NCBI GenBank assembly: GCA_015478735.1
Contig: JADMKQ010000003.1
Coordinates: 1 to 51,051 of the forward strand
Length of the DNA stretch: 51,051 bases
Origin: Sphingorhabdus sp.
GTDB lineage: Bacteria; Pseudomonadota; Alphaproteobacteria; Sphingomonadales; Sphingomonadaceae
Direction: 5' to 3'
The position numbers were made by a program, and so were the translations under genes. How positions within the stretch are numbered: the stretch's first letter is position 1; the number at the start of each line of letters is the position of its first letter. Shown here in pieces: positions 3,879 through 48,949 of this stretch. The notes below the pieces were generated by a model. It made no database searches and was not told the DNA's origin. It was given only the letters and a program-made list of their open reading frames with translations.

Positions 3879-6800
3879 ATGAAATATCGTCTTATTACCG
3901 CCCTTGCAGCCATCTCTTTTGCCGGAACTGCCTATGCACAGCCTGTCGATGAGAAGGCCAAAGAGGAAAAATGGGACGTAAACGCACCAAAGGGCGCGAC
4001 GATTAAACAGGTTCCGATCAATACCGATGAGGGTAGCTGGATCGATGTCGATGTCAGCCCCGATGGCGGCAGCGTCGCTTTTGCTCTGCTGGGCGATATT
4101 TACACCATGCCGATTTCCGGCGGCAACCCGACCCGTATTGCCGAAGGGCTGGCCTGGGAAGTCCAGCCGCGATTCTCCCCCGATGGTAATCGTATCGCCT
4201 TTACGTCGGATCGCGGCGGCGGGGATAATATCTGGATCATGAACCGGGATGGCAGCGACAAAAAGCAAGTGACCAAAGAAGAGTTCCGCTTGCTCAACCA
4301 GCCAAGCTGGAGTCCGGATGGCCGTTACATCATTGCCAAGAAACATTTTACCACCGGCCGTTCACTTGGCACCGGAGAGGTCTGGGTCTATCATGTTTCC
4401 GGCGGGGCGGGCGTTGTGCTGGTCAAGAAGCCCAATGACACGCATCAAAAAGAACTGGGCGAGCCGATTTACGCGCCCGATGGCAAATCGCTCTATTATA
4501 CGCGTAACATCACGCCTGGCGGCCAGTTTATTTATGCGCAGGATTCCAATACCGACCTGTTCAATATCGAGGAATATGATCTGGAAACCGGCGAAATCAG
4601 CACCGCAGTTTCCGGCCTTGGCGGGTCCGTGCGGCCAACCCCTTCGCCCGATGGCAAAAGCATTGCCTTTGTCCGGCGTGAACGCACCCAGTCAAAATTA
4701 TATGTCAAAGACATAACCACCGGCATCGAGCGGAAAATCTATGATGACCTGGATCAGGATGTGCAGGAAACCTGGGCAGTCACCGGCGTCTATCCCAATA
4801 TGGACTGGACTCCCGATAGCCGCAGCATCGTGTTCTGGGCAGGTGGCAAGATCCGCAAGGTGGCTGCAGATGGCTCCGGATCGTCGGTCATTCCGTTCAC
4901 AATCAACGACACTCGCGGCGTTGCCGATGCTCCGCATCCCAAAATCCCGGTCGCGTCTGACAGCTTCACCGCCAAAATGCCGCGCTTTGCAGCGGTATCG
5001 CCCAATGGCCGGCAAGTGGTGTTTGAAAGTCTGGGGCAGCTTTATATAAAGCCGATGAGCGGCGGAACGGCCAAGCGGTTGACCAACAGCAATGGCGAGC
5101 GCGAGCTTTTCCCCTCATGGTCGCGCGATGGGCGCTCAATTGTATATGTCGGCTGGACCGACAAGGAGCTGGGCCAGATAAAGACGGTTAGCGCGTCTGG
5201 TGGTTCCGCGCGCGCCGTTACCAATCGGCCCGGTCATTATGCCCGTCCGCGTTTCTCACCCGATGGCCGCACGATCATATTTGAAATGAAGGATGGCGGC
5301 TATCTGACCTCTCCCGCTTATTCGATGGATGACGGGATTTACAGCGTCGCTGCATCCGGCGGGACACCGCAGCGTATCACCAAGGATGCGGCTGGCCCGC
5401 AATTTGGTGCAAATAGCGACCGTATCTTCATGATGGAGCAAAAAGATAACAAGCGCATATTGACGAGCAGCGATATGAATGGCGAGGCCAAGCGCACCCA
5501 TGCGACGGGTGAACTGACCACCGATTATATCGTATCGCCCGACGGCCAATATGTCGCTTTCCGACAGAATTACGAAGCTTTTGTCATGCCGCTTCTGCCC
5601 GGCACTCAGGAGGTCGCGGTGACTCCGGATAGCAAATCGCTGCCCGTAGCAGCGGTGAGCAGCGGTGGTGCGGACTATATCCACTGGTCCCAGAATGGTC
5701 AGCAGCTTCACTGGAGCGTGGGACCGACGGTTTACACGGTCCAGACCAACGCGATTTTCCCCTCTGCACCGACTGGCAAGGACGCGCCTAAATTCACTCC
5801 GCCAAGCAGCGGCGTGTCGCTGGAGCGGACGATCGCGGCGGATAAACCCAGCGGCACATTGGCGCTGGTCGGAGCGCGGTTGATAACTATGGGCGATGAA
5901 GCAGGCGGGATTGTCGAAGACGGCACGATTGTCGTGAGGGATAACAAGATTGTCTCCGTCGGTCCGCGCGGCTCTGTTGCTGTGCCAGCGGGCACGACCA
6001 TCGTTGATCTGACCGGCAAGACCATTGTTCCCGGCTATATCGACGCCCATGCTCATGGTCCGCAGGGCACGGATGAACTGGTGCCGCAGCAAAACTGGTC
6101 GCTGATCCAGAACCTCGCGCTTGGCACAACCACGATCCACGACCCATCTAGCCGTGCGAGCGAGATTTTTGTCGCTGCGGAAATGCAGCGGGCAGGGCAG
6201 ATGCTTGGACCGCGTATCTTTTCCACCGGTGAAGTCGTCTATGGTGCAAAGGCCGCCGATGTCTATGCAGAGATCAACAATCTCGACGATGCGCTTGATC
6301 ATGTCCGGCGGCTAAAGGCACAGGGCGGGCATAGCGTGAAAAACTATAACCAGCCACGCCGGGAACAGCGTCAGCAAGTGGTCGAAGCGGCGCGTCAGGA
6401 AAATATGCTGGTCGTGGCGGAAGGCGGCTCGCTTTTCGGCATGGACATGTCGCTGGTCGCCGATGGCAACAGCACGCTGGAGCATAATATCCCGCTCGAT
6501 ATTTTCTATGACGATGTGGTCCAGATGTTTTCCCAGTCACAGACCAATTACACGCCCACACTTGTGGTGAGCTATGGCGGCCTGGCGGGTGATCCATACT
6601 GGCGGCAGGCGACTGACGTGTTCAAACATCCGTTGTTGATCCACACACCGCCCAAGCAACTGGCCGCTGCGACTGTGCGCAGGACAATGGCGCCGGAAGC
6701 GGATTTTGTGGATGATGACAATGCCCGTGAAGCCAAGAAGCTGGCGGATAAGGGCGTTCTGGTATCCATTGGCGCGCATGGGCAGCAGGCGGGTATCGGA

Positions 6801-7335: not shown

Positions 7336-7605
7336 ATGAACAAATTTACTGCTATCATTCTCGGCGCAGCTGCGCTTTCTCTCACCGCTCCTGCTTTTGC
7401 TGCTGACGTAGAAGTCGAACGCAACGAACGTCTCTATGATGCGTCCGGTGCAAGCGTTGCAAAAGTGAACCGCGTTGAAACTGACGGCGACGTACTGGTT
7501 ATCTACAAAGGTAAAGTGCGCCGCATCCAGTCTGACACCCTCTCAAAAACCGACGGCAAACTGGCGACGACATTGACCAAAAAAGAAATTCGTGGCCTGA
7601 ACTAG
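7336..7605 (+). CDS. Small exported hypothetical protein (89 aa)
   Basis: Signal peptide MNKFTAIILGAAALSLTAPAFA-AD; upstream ACCGGAG RBS; followed by a terminator. Confidence 0.75.
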   Translation: MNKFTAIILGAAALSLTAPAFAADVEVERNERLYDASGASVAKVNRVETDGDVLVIYKGKVRRIQSDTLSKTDGKLATTLTKKEIRGLN

Positions 7606-7648
7606 GTTAGCCGTTATTCAGCGACTGATTTTTCGGTCGGTGATTGTT

Positions 7649-7684
7649 AAAAGCCAGCGCGCGCATGTCGTTCGCTGGCTTTTT
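7649..7684 (+). terminator. Rho-independent terminator
   Basis: AAAAGCCAGCG...CGCTGGCTTTTT hairpin with T tract. Confidence 0.8.
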
Positions 7685-7694
7685 ATTTGAGTCG

Positions 7695-8294
7695 TTAGAT
7701 TTGCACTTCTGCCTGCGCTAAGTCTTCGGGCGTATTGATGTTCATAAAAGCCTGCTCATCGGGCCAGCTAATCCGCTTTGCATCGCATTGCCGGGCCAGC
7801 CATTGAAGCGATGGTGACGGTTCGTGCAGCGACCCGGATTGTTTGCTGATCCGGTAAGCTTCACACACCGAGCGCACAATATCGCAGCGCCAATAACCAA
7901 AAACCGGATGCAAATGCTGCGGTCCCTGGGCTACAGAGCAGCCGGGAACGGAGCTTAGCCGCCGAATAAGATCATCCGGTGCAAAAGGCGCATCAACGGG
8001 GATCGTCACAAAGCCTTCTGCTTCCGGGCATAACATCGGCAAATGCGCTGCGATCGTGAATATCGCGCCAACCGGTCCGCCCGGCATGTCCGGATCATCA
8101 GAGATAATATCGACACCCGTATCAAAATCGTCGGACGCCGATAGCCATATCCGGTCGGCAGAAGATTGAAAGCGCCCAATCGCCCGGTCGATCAGCCGGA
8201 CTCCATCAAGCCGGATCGCGGCCTTGTCCTGACCCATCCGGCGCGACTGGCCCCCCGCTAATATAATCAGGCAGGTCGGGGGATTATCGTTCAT
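7695..8294 (-). CDS. mobA: Molybdenum cofactor guanylyltransferase
   Basis: LAGGQSRRMGQDKAAIRLDGVRLIDRAI nucleotidyltransferase motif; VDAPFAPDDLI. Confidence 0.92.
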   Translation of the reverse strand: MNDNPPTCLIILAGGQSRRMGQDKAAIRLDGVRLIDRAIGRFQSSADRIWLSASDDFDTGVDIISDDPDMPGGPVGAIFTIAAHLPMLCPEAEGFVTIPVDAPFAPDDLIRRLSSVPGCSVAQGPQHLHPVFGYWRCDIVRSVCEAYRISKQSGSLHEPSPSLQWLARQCDAKRISWPDEQAFMNINTPEDLAQAEVQI

Positions 8295-12654: not shown

Positions 12655-13092
12655 TCACGCTTTTTCTAATGTGCATTGCAGGGGATGCTGGTTCTTGCGT
12701 GCAAAGTCCATCACCTGGGTGACTTTGGTTTCCGCGACTTCATAGCTGAATGTCCCGCATACGCCGACGCCCTTTTGATGGACATGGAGCATCACGCGCG
12801 TGGCTTCGTCAATGTCCATCTGGAAAAAGCGTTTGAGCACCAGCACGACAAACTCCATCGGAGTGTAATCGTCGTTGAGCAGCAGCACTTTATAGGGATT
12901 GGGCTTTTTCGTTTTGGCCCGCGTTTTGGTGGCGATACCAATATTGGTATCATCGCTGTCATCACCGCCGCCTACGCCGCTGTCTTTGTCGTCATCCCCG
13001 GCACGGACGCCCGGCAACACGCTGTAGCCAGCCTGTGAAGCAAGCGGGTAGGCACCGGACAGGTTCGGGGAGAGAATCTTTACTTTAATCAT
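12655..13092 (-). CDS. clpS: ATP-dependent Clp protease adaptor ClpS (N-terminal start uncertain)
   Basis: [52 protein letters not shown] is canonical ClpS. Confidence 0.95.
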
Positions 13093-45159: not shown

Positions 45160-46719
45160 ATGTCTATAGCTCATGAAGAAACCATCCTGATCGTTGATTT
45201 TGGCTCTCAGGTCACGCAGCTTATCGCCCGGCGCGTCCGTGAAGCGGGGGTCTATTCAGAGATCGCCCCGTTCAACAATGCCGAGGAGGCGTTTGAGCGT
45301 CTGAAGCCCAAGGGAATCATCCTTTCCGGCGGCCCCGCCAGCGTCACCGAAGAAGGCAGCCCGCGCATCCCGCAGGCGTTTCTGGATGCCGGTATTCCCG
45401 TGCTTGGCATTTGCTATGGCCAGCAGGTGTTGACCACGCAACTGGGCGGTCAGGTCGAAGGCGGCGAGAGCGGTGAATTTGGCCGCGCGTTTATCGAGAT
45501 TTCCGAAAGCTGCGTCCTGTTCGACGGCCTGTGGAAAGTCGGCGAAAAGCATCAGGTGTGGATGAGCCACGGCGACAAGGTAACAGAATTTGCCCCCGGC
45601 TTCCGCATCGTCGCAACGACCGAAGGCGCACCTTTTGCGATTATCGCAGATGATGAAAAGCGCTTCTACGGCATGCAATTCCATCCCGAAGTTGTGCACA
45701 CGCCCGATGGTGGCCGCCTTGTCGCCAATTTCGTGCGCCACGTCTGTGGGTGTTCCGGTGACTGGACCATGGCAGAGTTCAAGGAAGCCAAGATCAAGGA
45801 AATTCGCGAGCAGGTAGGGGATGGCAAAGTCATTTGCGGCCTGTCCGGCGGCGTCGATAGCGCTGTTGCCGCGGTGCTGATCCACGAAGCGATCGGCGAT
45901 CAGCTCACCTGCGTCTTTGTCGATCACGGCTTGATGCGGATGGGTGAGGCGGATCAGGTGGTGAGCCTGTTCAAGGGGCATTATAATATCCCGCTGGTGC
46001 ATCTCAATGTCGAGACTTTATTCCTGAACGGCCTGAAGGGCGAGACGGACCCCGAAAAGAAGCGCAAATTCATTGGCAAGACCTTCATTGATGTCTTTGA
46101 AATTGAAGCCAAAAAAGTCGGCGGCGCGGATTTCCTCGCACAAGGCACGCTCTATCCCGATGTGATCGAAAGCGTCAGCTTTACCGGCGGTCCGAGTGTC
46201 ACAATCAAATCGCATCATAACGTCGGCGGTCTTCCCGAACGCATGAACATGAAGCTGGTCGAACCTTTGCGCGAACTGTTCAAGGATGAAGTCCGCGAAC
46301 TTGGCCGCGAGCTTGGTCTGCCCGAAATATTCGTTGGCCGCCATCCGTTCCCCGGCCCCGGCCTTGCGATTCGCATCCCCGGAGAAGTGACCAAGGAACG
46401 CTGCGACATTTTGCGCAAAGCCGACGCTATCTATCTGGAAGAAATCAGAAATGCCGGATTATATGACGCGATCTGGCAGGCCTTTGCAGTCCTGCTCCCC
46501 GTCAAAACAGTCGGCGTGATGGGCGACCAGAGAACCTATGACAGCGTCTGCGGCCTGCGCGCAGTAACCAGCACCGACGGCATGACCGCTGACGTTTATC
46601 CTTTCGACGCAGGCTTCCTGACCCGCGTTTCGACCCGGATCGTCAACGAGGTAAAGGGCATAAACCGCGTGGTCTACGATTATACCAGCAAGCCGCCGGG
46701 GACGATCGAGTGGGAGTGA
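45160..46719 (+). CDS. guaA: GMP synthase (glutamine-hydrolysing)
   Basis: [65 protein letters not shown]-terminus [11 protein letters not shown]. Confidence 0.99.
46705..46719. repeat. 15-bp direct repeat copy 1 (candidate attL), guaA 3' end
   Basis: ATCGAGTGGGAGTGA, identical to 47805-47819. Confidence 0.85.
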
Positions 46720-46794
46720 GTTGCAGCAGCGGGGCGCTCCGGTGCCCCGTCTTTGCGCCCGAAGGGGATAGTGGAACTACCAGCGAGTAAACCG

Positions 46795-47508
46795 ATGAAC
46801 AGCAGCGAAAAGATCTATTCCGGCAAGACAAAAGACCTGTACGCCCTGGCGAATGACAACATCCTCCTCGTCTTCAAGGACGACGTCACCGGGGGGGAAG
46901 ATGGCGTCATCGACCCGGGTGCCAACGCCGTCATCGGTCAGGTCGAAGGCAAAGGCCGAAAGTCTCTCGCCATGACCGAGCATTTCTTCAAGTGTCTCCA
47001 TGCCGCTGGCATCCCTACCCATCTGGTGCGTCTCGACCTCGAGCAGGCCAGCATGGAAGTCCGTCGTGCCGAGCCCCTGGGCAAGGATATCAGCGGCAAG
47101 GGTGGCCTCGAATTCATCTGCCGCACTCGGCCCTGGGGAAGTTTCCAGCGCCGTTACCAAAATTACATCGGTGAAACTACGGGTGATCTCGACTACCTCG
47201 TCGAGATCACCATCAAGGACGACGAACGCGGTGATCCGCTCATCAACGACGACACCATCGTTGCCCTCGGCCTCCTTAGCCAACAGCACCTCGATCAGGC
47301 CAAGGATCTCACCCGTCAGGTGTGCCGTATCGTCGAGTCAGACCTGGCTGACAAGGGCCTCGGCCTGATCGACATGAAGATCGAAATCGGCTTCGTCGAT
47401 GGCGAGGTCGTGGTTATCGACGAGGTCTCGGCAGATGCGATGCGGGTCATGGACGGCGAAGGCAAAGTGCTGGAACACGGGACGCTGTACGAACAACTGA
47501 TCCGCTAG
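46795..47508 (+). CDS. purC: Phosphoribosylaminoimidazole-succinocarboxamide synthase, divergent type
   Basis: MNSSEKIYSGKTKDLYALANDNILLVFKDDVTGGEDGVIDPGANAVIGQVEGKGRKSLAM...LGLIDMKIEIGFVDGEVVVIDEVSADAMRV. Confidence 0.92.
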   Translation: MNSSEKIYSGKTKDLYALANDNILLVFKDDVTGGEDGVIDPGANAVIGQVEGKGRKSLAMTEHFFKCLHAAGIPTHLVRLDLEQASMEVRRAEPLGKDISGKGGLEFICRTRPWGSFQRRYQNYIGETTGDLDYLVEITIKDDERGDPLINDDTIVALGLLSQQHLDQAKDLTRQVCRIVESDLADKGLGLIDMKIEIGFVDGEVVVIDEVSADAMRVMDGEGKVLEHGTLYEQLIR

Positions 47509-47543
47509 GGTGCTGGGGCACAGCTGACAGCATCAACCCCACG

Positions 47544-47574
47544 AAGCCCGCAGTTCATAACTGGGGGCTTTTTT
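47544..47574 (+). terminator. Rho-independent terminator of purC
   Basis: AAGCCC.CAGTT-CAT-AACTG.GGGCTTTTTT. Confidence 0.8.
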
Positions 47575-47619
47575 GCGGACTTTGAAAGTACGACATTCAC
47601 GAATGCTGCTATGTGCGTC

Positions 47620-47757
47620 TCAGCGTTCAAGTGCCGAGATGAGTTGAGCCAAGCTGCTGGCGAGGGTTTCAGTCTCGGCCGCTGAGAAGGGGCTGCTTCC
47701 AGCACTTTTGAAGAACAAGTATTGGGTATGGTATTTTTTATGGCATTGCTTGGGTGC
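47620..47757 (-). pseudogene. Possible 3' remnant of an unidentified coding sequence inside the guaA-adjacent element
   Basis: Open minus frame APKQCHKKYHTQYLFFKSAGSSPFSAAETETLASSLAQLISALER*; amphipathic C-terminal helix-like tail, no start codon. Confidence 0.25.
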
Positions 47758-47804
47758 TTATTTTTAATACACTGATTTTTAAGGTAAAATTCTATCTGTT
47801 GATA

Positions 47805-47819
47805 ATCGAGTGGGAGTGA
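47805..47819. repeat. 15-bp direct repeat copy 2 (candidate attR)
   Basis: ATCGAGTGGGAGTGA, exactly 1100 bp from copy 1. Confidence 0.85.
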
Positions 47820-47877
47820 TTCTGCTAAATTAAGCAGCCACGCATCCATCTCTTGTTCTTCGCCTGTCTTGCAGAGA

Positions 47878-47896
47878 TCCTGAAACCGGTTCAGGA
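47878..47896. repeat. 19-nt near-palindrome
   Basis: TCCTGAAACCGGTTCAGGA. Confidence 0.5.
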
Positions 47897-47941
47897 TGGC
47901 GAGTGAAAAGATAGTCATAGCTGACAAAACAGGAGAATCCC

Positions 47942-48949
47942 ATGAAAGCCATTCAACTTCACGCGCCTGCATCGCTTGATAATCTTAAACTTGTTGATCT
48001 CCCTGATCCTGCGGCGCCCGGTCCGGGTGAAATTGCGGTTCGGCTGCGGGCGTCTTCGCTCAACTATCATGATTATGCGGTGGTGAAAGGCATGATTCCG
48101 ACCGCCGAGAATCGTATTCCGATGTCGGATGGTGCGGGCGAAGTGACGGCGGTTGGTGAGGGCGTGACAGAATTTAAGGTCGGCGACACGGTTGTCTCGA
48201 CCTTCTTCCCCGACTGGCTTGATGGCGGGCCACCAGAGAGCGGCTTTCAGCGAGTGCCCGGTGACGGAATTGACGGCTATGCTTGTGAGCAGGCGGTGGG
48301 GCAGACGACTTCCTGGACCCATGCGCCCAAGGGATATAGCGCGGCAGAGGCGGCGACGCTGACCTGCGCAGGGCTTACGGCCTGGCGCGCGCTCTTCGTT
48401 GATGGCTGCGTGAAGCCCGGCGATACCGTGCTGGTGCAAGGGACTGGCGGCGTGTCGATATTTGCCCTGCAATTTGCCAAGGCGGCTGGGGCGAAGGTCA
48501 TCGCGACATCATCTTCGGATGAAAAACTGGCTCGGCTCAATGATTTGGGCGCAGACCATCTGATCAATTATAAAGAGGTGGAAGCCTGGGGACCGAAGGT
48601 GCTGGAACTGACCGGCGGGGCAGGCGTCGATTGCGTGGTGGAAATTGGCGGCCCCGGAACGCTCGACCAGTCGATGATGGCAACGCGCATCGGCGGTCAT
48701 ATTGCGCTGATCGGTGTGCTGACCGGCTTTGCCGGACCAGTGCAGACCGGACTGTTAATGGGCAAAAACCTGCGGGTACAGGGCCTCACCGTGGGCAGCC
48801 GTGCGCATCAGCTCGACATGATTGCGGCCATCGAGGTCAATGGCATCAAGCCGGTTCTCGACAAGCATTTCCCGCTGGCTGATTTGGCCGATGCATTCCG
48901 GCATCAGGAATCGGGTGCGCATTTTGGCAAGATCATTGTGGATATCTGA
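47942..48949 (+). CDS. Zinc-independent/quinone oxidoreductase-like NAD(P)-dependent alcohol dehydrogenase (MDR family)
   Basis: MKAIQLHAPASLDNLKLVDLPDPAAPGPGEIAVRLRASSLNYHDYAVVKG; VLVQGTGGVSIFALQFAKAAGAKVIATSSSDEKL. Confidence 0.92.
   Translation: MKAIQLHAPASLDNLKLVDLPDPAAPGPGEIAVRLRASSLNYHDYAVVKGMIPTAENRIPMSDGAGEVTAVGEGVTEFKVGDTVVSTFFPDWLDGGPPESGFQRVPGDGIDGYACEQAVGQTTSWTHAPKGYSAAEAATLTCAGLTAWRALFVDGCVKPGDTVLVQGTGGVSIFALQFAKAAGAKVIATSSSDEKLARLNDLGADHLINYKEVEAWGPKVLELTGGAGVDCVVEIGGPGTLDQSMMATRIGGHIALIGVLTGFAGPVQTGLLMGKNLRVQGLTVGSRAHQLDMIAAIEVNGIKPVLDKHFPLADLADAFRHQESGAHFGKIIVDI

Follow-up and report, generated by a model that had tools for sequence, protein, structure and literature searches.

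The integrase of the island GIsul2 excises and integrates both that island and the integrase-less unit CR2-sul2, and it works through sites with the core GAGTGGGA at the end of guaA (Zhang et al. 2022, PMC9376610). The stretch of Sphingorhabdus sp. DNA analysed here (51,051 nucleotides in all, hereafter the window) holds a comparable arrangement, in which a segment of 1.1 kb at the 3' end of guaA is bounded by two copies of such a site and carries a purC gene, designated purC2. We consider it highly probable that this segment is a horizontally acquired, integrase-less mobile unit with a second, divergent and probably active SAICAR synthase. A sequence-only reading of the window had already singled out the codons and the N-terminal motif of purC2; the anatomy of the mobile unit is new detail beyond that observation.

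Codon usage and N-terminal motif of purC2

The purC2 gene (46795..47508, plus strand) is predicted, on the basis of PF01259, the PurC fold and dN/dS, to encode a divergent SAICAR synthase (phosphoribosylaminoimidazolesuccinocarboxamide synthase) of 237 amino acids. A minus-strand ORF of 155 amino acids (47505-47972) was rejected as a gene. The sequence-only reading had described the codons of purC2 as C-ending and unlike those of its neighbours, and the counts agree with this: C3 is 0.515, against 0.333 ± 0.043 for 25 long ORFs of the window (z about 4.2), and GC3 is 0.751, against 0.608 ± 0.051 for the same ORFs (z about 2.8). However, the overall codon-preference score of purC2 (0.160) is not outlying; since it falls within the range of the host (0.009-0.21), codon usage alone is weak evidence. 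The N-terminal motif, which had also been called unusual, is indeed so: the pattern GKTKDLY..FKDDVTG..DGVIDPGAN is present and is conserved throughout the purC2 family, whereas the ordinary PurC of the host carries GKAKILY..FKDDATAFN.

Insertion at the 3' end of guaA

The guaA gene (GMP synthase; 45160..46719, plus strand) is native, with 82-88% DNA identity to the guaA of genus-mates, and its 3' end is the target site. Its last 15 bp, ATCGAGTGGGAGTGA (46705..46719, plus strand), constitute the left recombination site and include at 46708-46715 the core GAGTGGGA, which matches the core published for GIsul2 (PMC9376610). The right recombination site is a second, exact copy in direct orientation (47805..47819, plus strand), and the repeat occurs exactly twice in the whole genome. 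Beyond it lie a native spacer of 122 bp (47820..47941, plus strand) and a native zinc-type alcohol dehydrogenase gene (ADH; 47942..48949, plus strand), which in relatives comes directly after guaA. Empty sites, with 84-119 bp from guaA to ADH, were found in genus-mates L110, L112, L117 and L119, and relatives have a single core at the end of guaA, with no second core in the stretch covered. The exact repeat and the empty sites therefore indicate that 1,100 bp (46720..47819, plus strand) were inserted at the end of guaA. An old, genus-wide insertion was ruled out because the guaA-ADH gaps of genus-mates hold no homologous insert, and a contaminant contig was ruled out because both flanks are native genus DNA. 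In some genus-mates (e.g. L092, L097, L103 and L108) these gaps measure 443-1358 bp and contain other DNA without a second core. The spacer of the window contains a repeat dispersed in the genus, a palindrome at 47872-47914 (CCTGAAACCGGTTCAGG at 47879-47895) that recurs widely in genus-mates and is probably REP-like.

Within the unit, a GC hairpin and then a T-rich stretch (46731..46748, plus strand) separate the left site from purC2, and a terminator-like hairpin (47543..47574, plus strand; -18 kcal/mol, z -5.4) lies 3' of the gene. Further on, the last 22 codons of a marR gene remain on the minus strand (47620..47688; FSAAETETLASSLAQLISALER and the stop), matching the C-terminus of the intact marR in the corresponding unit of H. 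bauzanensis (L035). Relative to the latter unit, about 1.6 kb (marR and adh) are deleted, and the homology blocks meet at a junction at 47691..47700. The right-end arm (47697..47804, plus strand), which terminates in TGTTGATA ahead of the right site, is 87-88% identical to the right ends of L035 and of a Halopseudomonas-group unit (G393), and it also gives a 71% match to the end of a segment found upstream of purC2 in L042. No integrase gene is present in 46720-47819, so the unit lacks the own integrase that defines an autonomous island of the GIsul2 type. What it has in common with CR2-sul2 are flanking GAGTGGGA sites, including the one at the end of guaA, an empty site and occurrence in a distant host. 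No conserved metabolic partner was found beside purC2 except guaA, which is itself the target site.

Related units in other bacteria

Homology to L035 extends from site to site (46705 corresponds to L035:7911 and 47819 to L035:10629), interrupted by the marR and adh genes. The G393 unit is located directly on guaA and measures 1,245 bp from core to core; the window unit is 95.7% identical to it over 867 bp and 88% identical over the last 128 bp, and both ends of the homology fall at the sites. The first codons of adh are retained in G393, without marR, whereas the window unit retains the end of marR. Given these different remnants, the two short units are separate deletion derivatives of a longer purC2-marR-adh unit, and, as both deletions spared purC2 and both ends, purC2 looks like retained cargo.

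Between the window and G393, guaA is only 60% identical in DNA (dS 1.8), whereas the adjoining purC2 is 96% identical (dS 0.135). This contrast is the strongest single evidence for transfer of the segment from repeat to repeat. Alternatively, purC2 could have spread by homologous recombination between guaA regions, through transformation with guaA-purC2 fragments and not by a site-specific process. Joint travel of the two genes is indeed possible: in Aquibaculum arenosum (L059), an extra guaA 3' fragment (7367-7933), 85% identical to the guaA of the window, lies just before purC2 in addition to a full guaA, so that guaA and purC2 sequences seem to have arrived in this genome on a single piece. 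Nevertheless, we regard homologous recombination as very improbable, since the similarity between the window and G393 switches at the 15-bp site itself, the unit has a second site at its right end, and units with the same guaA-type bounding site are also found away from guaA (L035, L038 and L053).

In at least 19 loci, purC2 lies a short distance downstream of the guaA that belongs to the host. Among the named-genome loci examined, the right-hand second site is clear only in L035 and L053; in most other copies the right end may have been lost or changed, or the motif may be too degraded to be seen. The order in H. bauzanensis is guaA, a partial integrase with no more than the arm-binding and central domains, an island of about 14 kb and then the purC2 unit, with a site on either side of it. 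This island (L141/L035) encodes several large uncharacterised proteins, a DNA methylase and a type-III-like restriction helicase of the ResIII type, and is possibly a defence island. In Advenella alkanexedens (L053:4616-7922), sites at 4616 and 7908 enclose an ISCR-type transposase gene and sul2; the 7908 site is shared with the purC2 unit, which extends from there to a site at 12787, before tadA. Similarly, sul2 precedes the site shared with the purC2 unit in H. xiamenensis (L038:407-1529). In a Paenalcaligenes MAG (L057:1698-6625), purC2 follows, on the same strand, genes that resemble metK, ahcY and metF by eye. A record titled Bacillus subtilis SK6B4 (L044) has Pseudochrobactrum-like guaA and purC2 and is probably misnamed or contaminated.

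A second purC of foreign origin

The sequence-only reading had proposed that purC2 is a second copy and that it was acquired horizontally. A profile search of the genome (an assembly of 243 contigs) with PF01259 returned two loci, one on contig C176 (281.6 bits) and one in the window (127.6 bits), which bears out the first proposal. The two proteins are 34% identical to each other, and the ordinary PurC is 95% identical to that of a genus-mate. The purC2 type was found in none of 60 relatives searched, 32 genus-mates included, where every PurC match was to the ordinary type, at 30-38% identity to the protein of the window, and in none of 300 further genomes or species sampled from the order. 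A tree of 81 sequences was built by a quick method with SH-aLRT as the only branch support; in it, the purC2 type forms one side of a branch (support 97) and the window purC2 clusters with those of Halopseudomonas (Gammaproteobacteria) and Pollutimonas (Betaproteobacteria; support 97), whereas the ordinary PurC of the host groups with its own genus. A recent duplication of the host purC was ruled out by the 34% identity and the separate clades. Horizontal acquisition is thus upheld by the foreign cluster in the tree, the absence of the type from the sample of the order and the insertion bounded by recombination sites; a sole copy with vertical phylogeny, which would have spoken against it, was looked for and neither part was found.

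The distribution is patchy elsewhere too: in the genus of H. bauzanensis, purC2 is present in 8 of 37 genomes. In every proteobacterial genome checked it is a second copy. A phage or plasmid origin was rejected, as searches of 50,697 phage records and 72,556 plasmid records gave no protein match above 60% identity; at the DNA level, purC2 had no match in plasmids or in E. coli genomes, and viral contigs yielded one distant relative (44%).

Relationship of the purC2 product to SAICAR synthases

The purC2 protein clearly passes the curated cut-off of PF01259 (127.6-128.2 bits against 20), and its score with TIGR00081, the NCBI equivalog model for purC, is below the cut-off (115.9 bits against 189.9). 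Invariant in the family are the motifs GKTK, CR..GS, DxKxE and DE...R, with positions G10-K13, R110, G115, S116, D193, K195, E197, D209, E210 and R217, which presumably have active-site roles. The AlphaFold model (pLDDT 88.5, pTM 0.86) was compared with the PDB, and the best 38 matches are all SAICAR synthases or PAICS, with TM about 0.8. Solved bacterial and archaeal PurC structures (2yzl/2z02, 4fe2, 1kut and 2gqr) share fold, length and conserved residues with purC2, the nearest solved relatives being 28-31% identical to it; in contrast to these enzymes, purC2 belongs to a clade of its own with Firmicute and Bacteroidete enzymes and has the extra DGVIDPGAN segment.

The relatives in Enterococcus alcedinis and E. 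aquimarinus (L150 and L151) are 48-49% identical to purC2. The pur operons of these species contain purE, K, Q, L, F, M, N, H and D, assigned by visual inspection of sequence and gene order and, for purH, confirmed by profile, and leave too little room for purC. The only PF01259 gene in either genome is of the purC2 type and is located outside the pur operon. As the sole PurC beside otherwise complete pur operons, the purC2 type very probably has SAICAR synthase activity, and by extension the enzyme would be active in the Sphingorhabdus host. The protein might instead be a related ligase with another substrate or pathway, no longer acting as SAICAR synthase, and several features fit such a change: the TIGR00081 score, a loop preceding the conserved serine that reads WGS and not AGS, the longer DGVIDPGAN segment, the constant status of second copy in the proteobacterial genomes checked and the lack of a conserved pathway partner next to it. 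We nonetheless judge a change of function to be quite unlikely in view of the enterococcal operons, the invariant motifs and the fit of the predicted model to PurC structures; the Enterococcus relative is itself below the TIGR00081 cut-off, though it is the sole PurC there. As to the earlier suggestion of a substitute or altered-regulation enzyme, the type can substitute in some Firmicutes, where its homologues serve as the only PurC; in the proteobacterial genomes checked purC2 is an addition to the ordinary enzyme.

Expression, retention and possible benefit

No sigma-70 type promoter was found before purC2 by a simple scan, and the leader hairpin is only about 40 bp from the start codon, so the expression of purC2 may rely on guaA read-through. 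The GC hairpin and T-rich shape of the leader also occur in L035 and, with different bases, in L051; a search of the leader for a riboswitch gave no Rfam match worth reporting.

The missing promoter signal, the lack of partner genes and the presence of a second copy in all the proteobacteria checked would suit a gene that is carried along neutrally with guaA islands, to no gain of the host. This reading is unlikely, in our estimation: dN/dS between purC2 copies is 0.07-0.15, indicating purifying selection, purC2 was spared by two separate deletions, and many lineages that have lost the right site still carry it. As for what a retained purC2 would provide, a PurC that evades an inhibitor or is regulated differently would be a reasonable guess by analogy with Sul2; dosage or passive freight are possible reasons for its carriage as well. 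The diverged PurC, which is the sole one in some Firmicutes and an extra one in proteobacteria, lends itself to a clean pairwise comparison of regulation or of sensitivity to inhibitors.

Proposed movement of the unit and comparison with GIsul2 and CR2-sul2

The purC2 unit has the same core, target and neighbours as GIsul2 and CR2-sul2, and its movement by an integrase of the GIsul2 family is therefore the most likely explanation. A tyrosine integrase of this kind would have been supplied in trans or from a neighbouring island, and the GAGTGGGA core of a circular purC2 unit would have recombined with the identical core at the 3' end of guaA. Such an insertion would rebuild the end of guaA and leave the unit between two copies of the site. 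Two independent deletions removed marR and adh, sparing purC2 and both ends. Of the three tyrosine recombinases seen in the genome of the window, two have the size of Xer proteins and the third is interrupted by a stop codon; none is a candidate GIsul2-type integrase, so the window copy looks stranded. It is unusual for a single housekeeping purine gene to move alone between proteobacterial classes on an integrase-less unit of 1.1 kb, and no description of the purC2 unit was found in a literature search of limited extent that covered few subscription papers. The findings suggest that the guaA integrase system known for the spread of sul2 also spreads core metabolic genes. More broadly, integrase-less units at guaA-type sites might be a general route for spare core enzymes, common to alpha-, beta- and gammaproteobacteria, with purC2 as an inhibitor-insensitive PurC in the way that sul2 relates to sulfonamides; this generalization is tentative and, as a whole, rather doubtful.

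Compared with the described systems, the purC2 unit shares target and recombination core with GIsul2 and other guaA islands, but these bring their own integrase and the purC2 unit has none. The CR2-sul2 unit is closer, being likewise integrase-less, with sites of the GAGTGGGA type and the 3' end of guaA as target, and the sul2 side and the purC2 unit have one common site in L053 and L038. The purC2 unit differs from it in lacking the CR2 transposase, in its size of about 1.1 kb and in its PurC cargo, which has no known drug link; moreover, the mobility of CR2-sul2 is experimental, whereas that of the purC2 unit is predicted from sequence. The cargo of CR2-sul2, the dihydropteroate synthase Sul2, is, like purC2, a second, divergent housekeeping enzyme. 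The best parallel for purC2 is sul2: a spare, divergent, drug-evading enzyme at the same sites.
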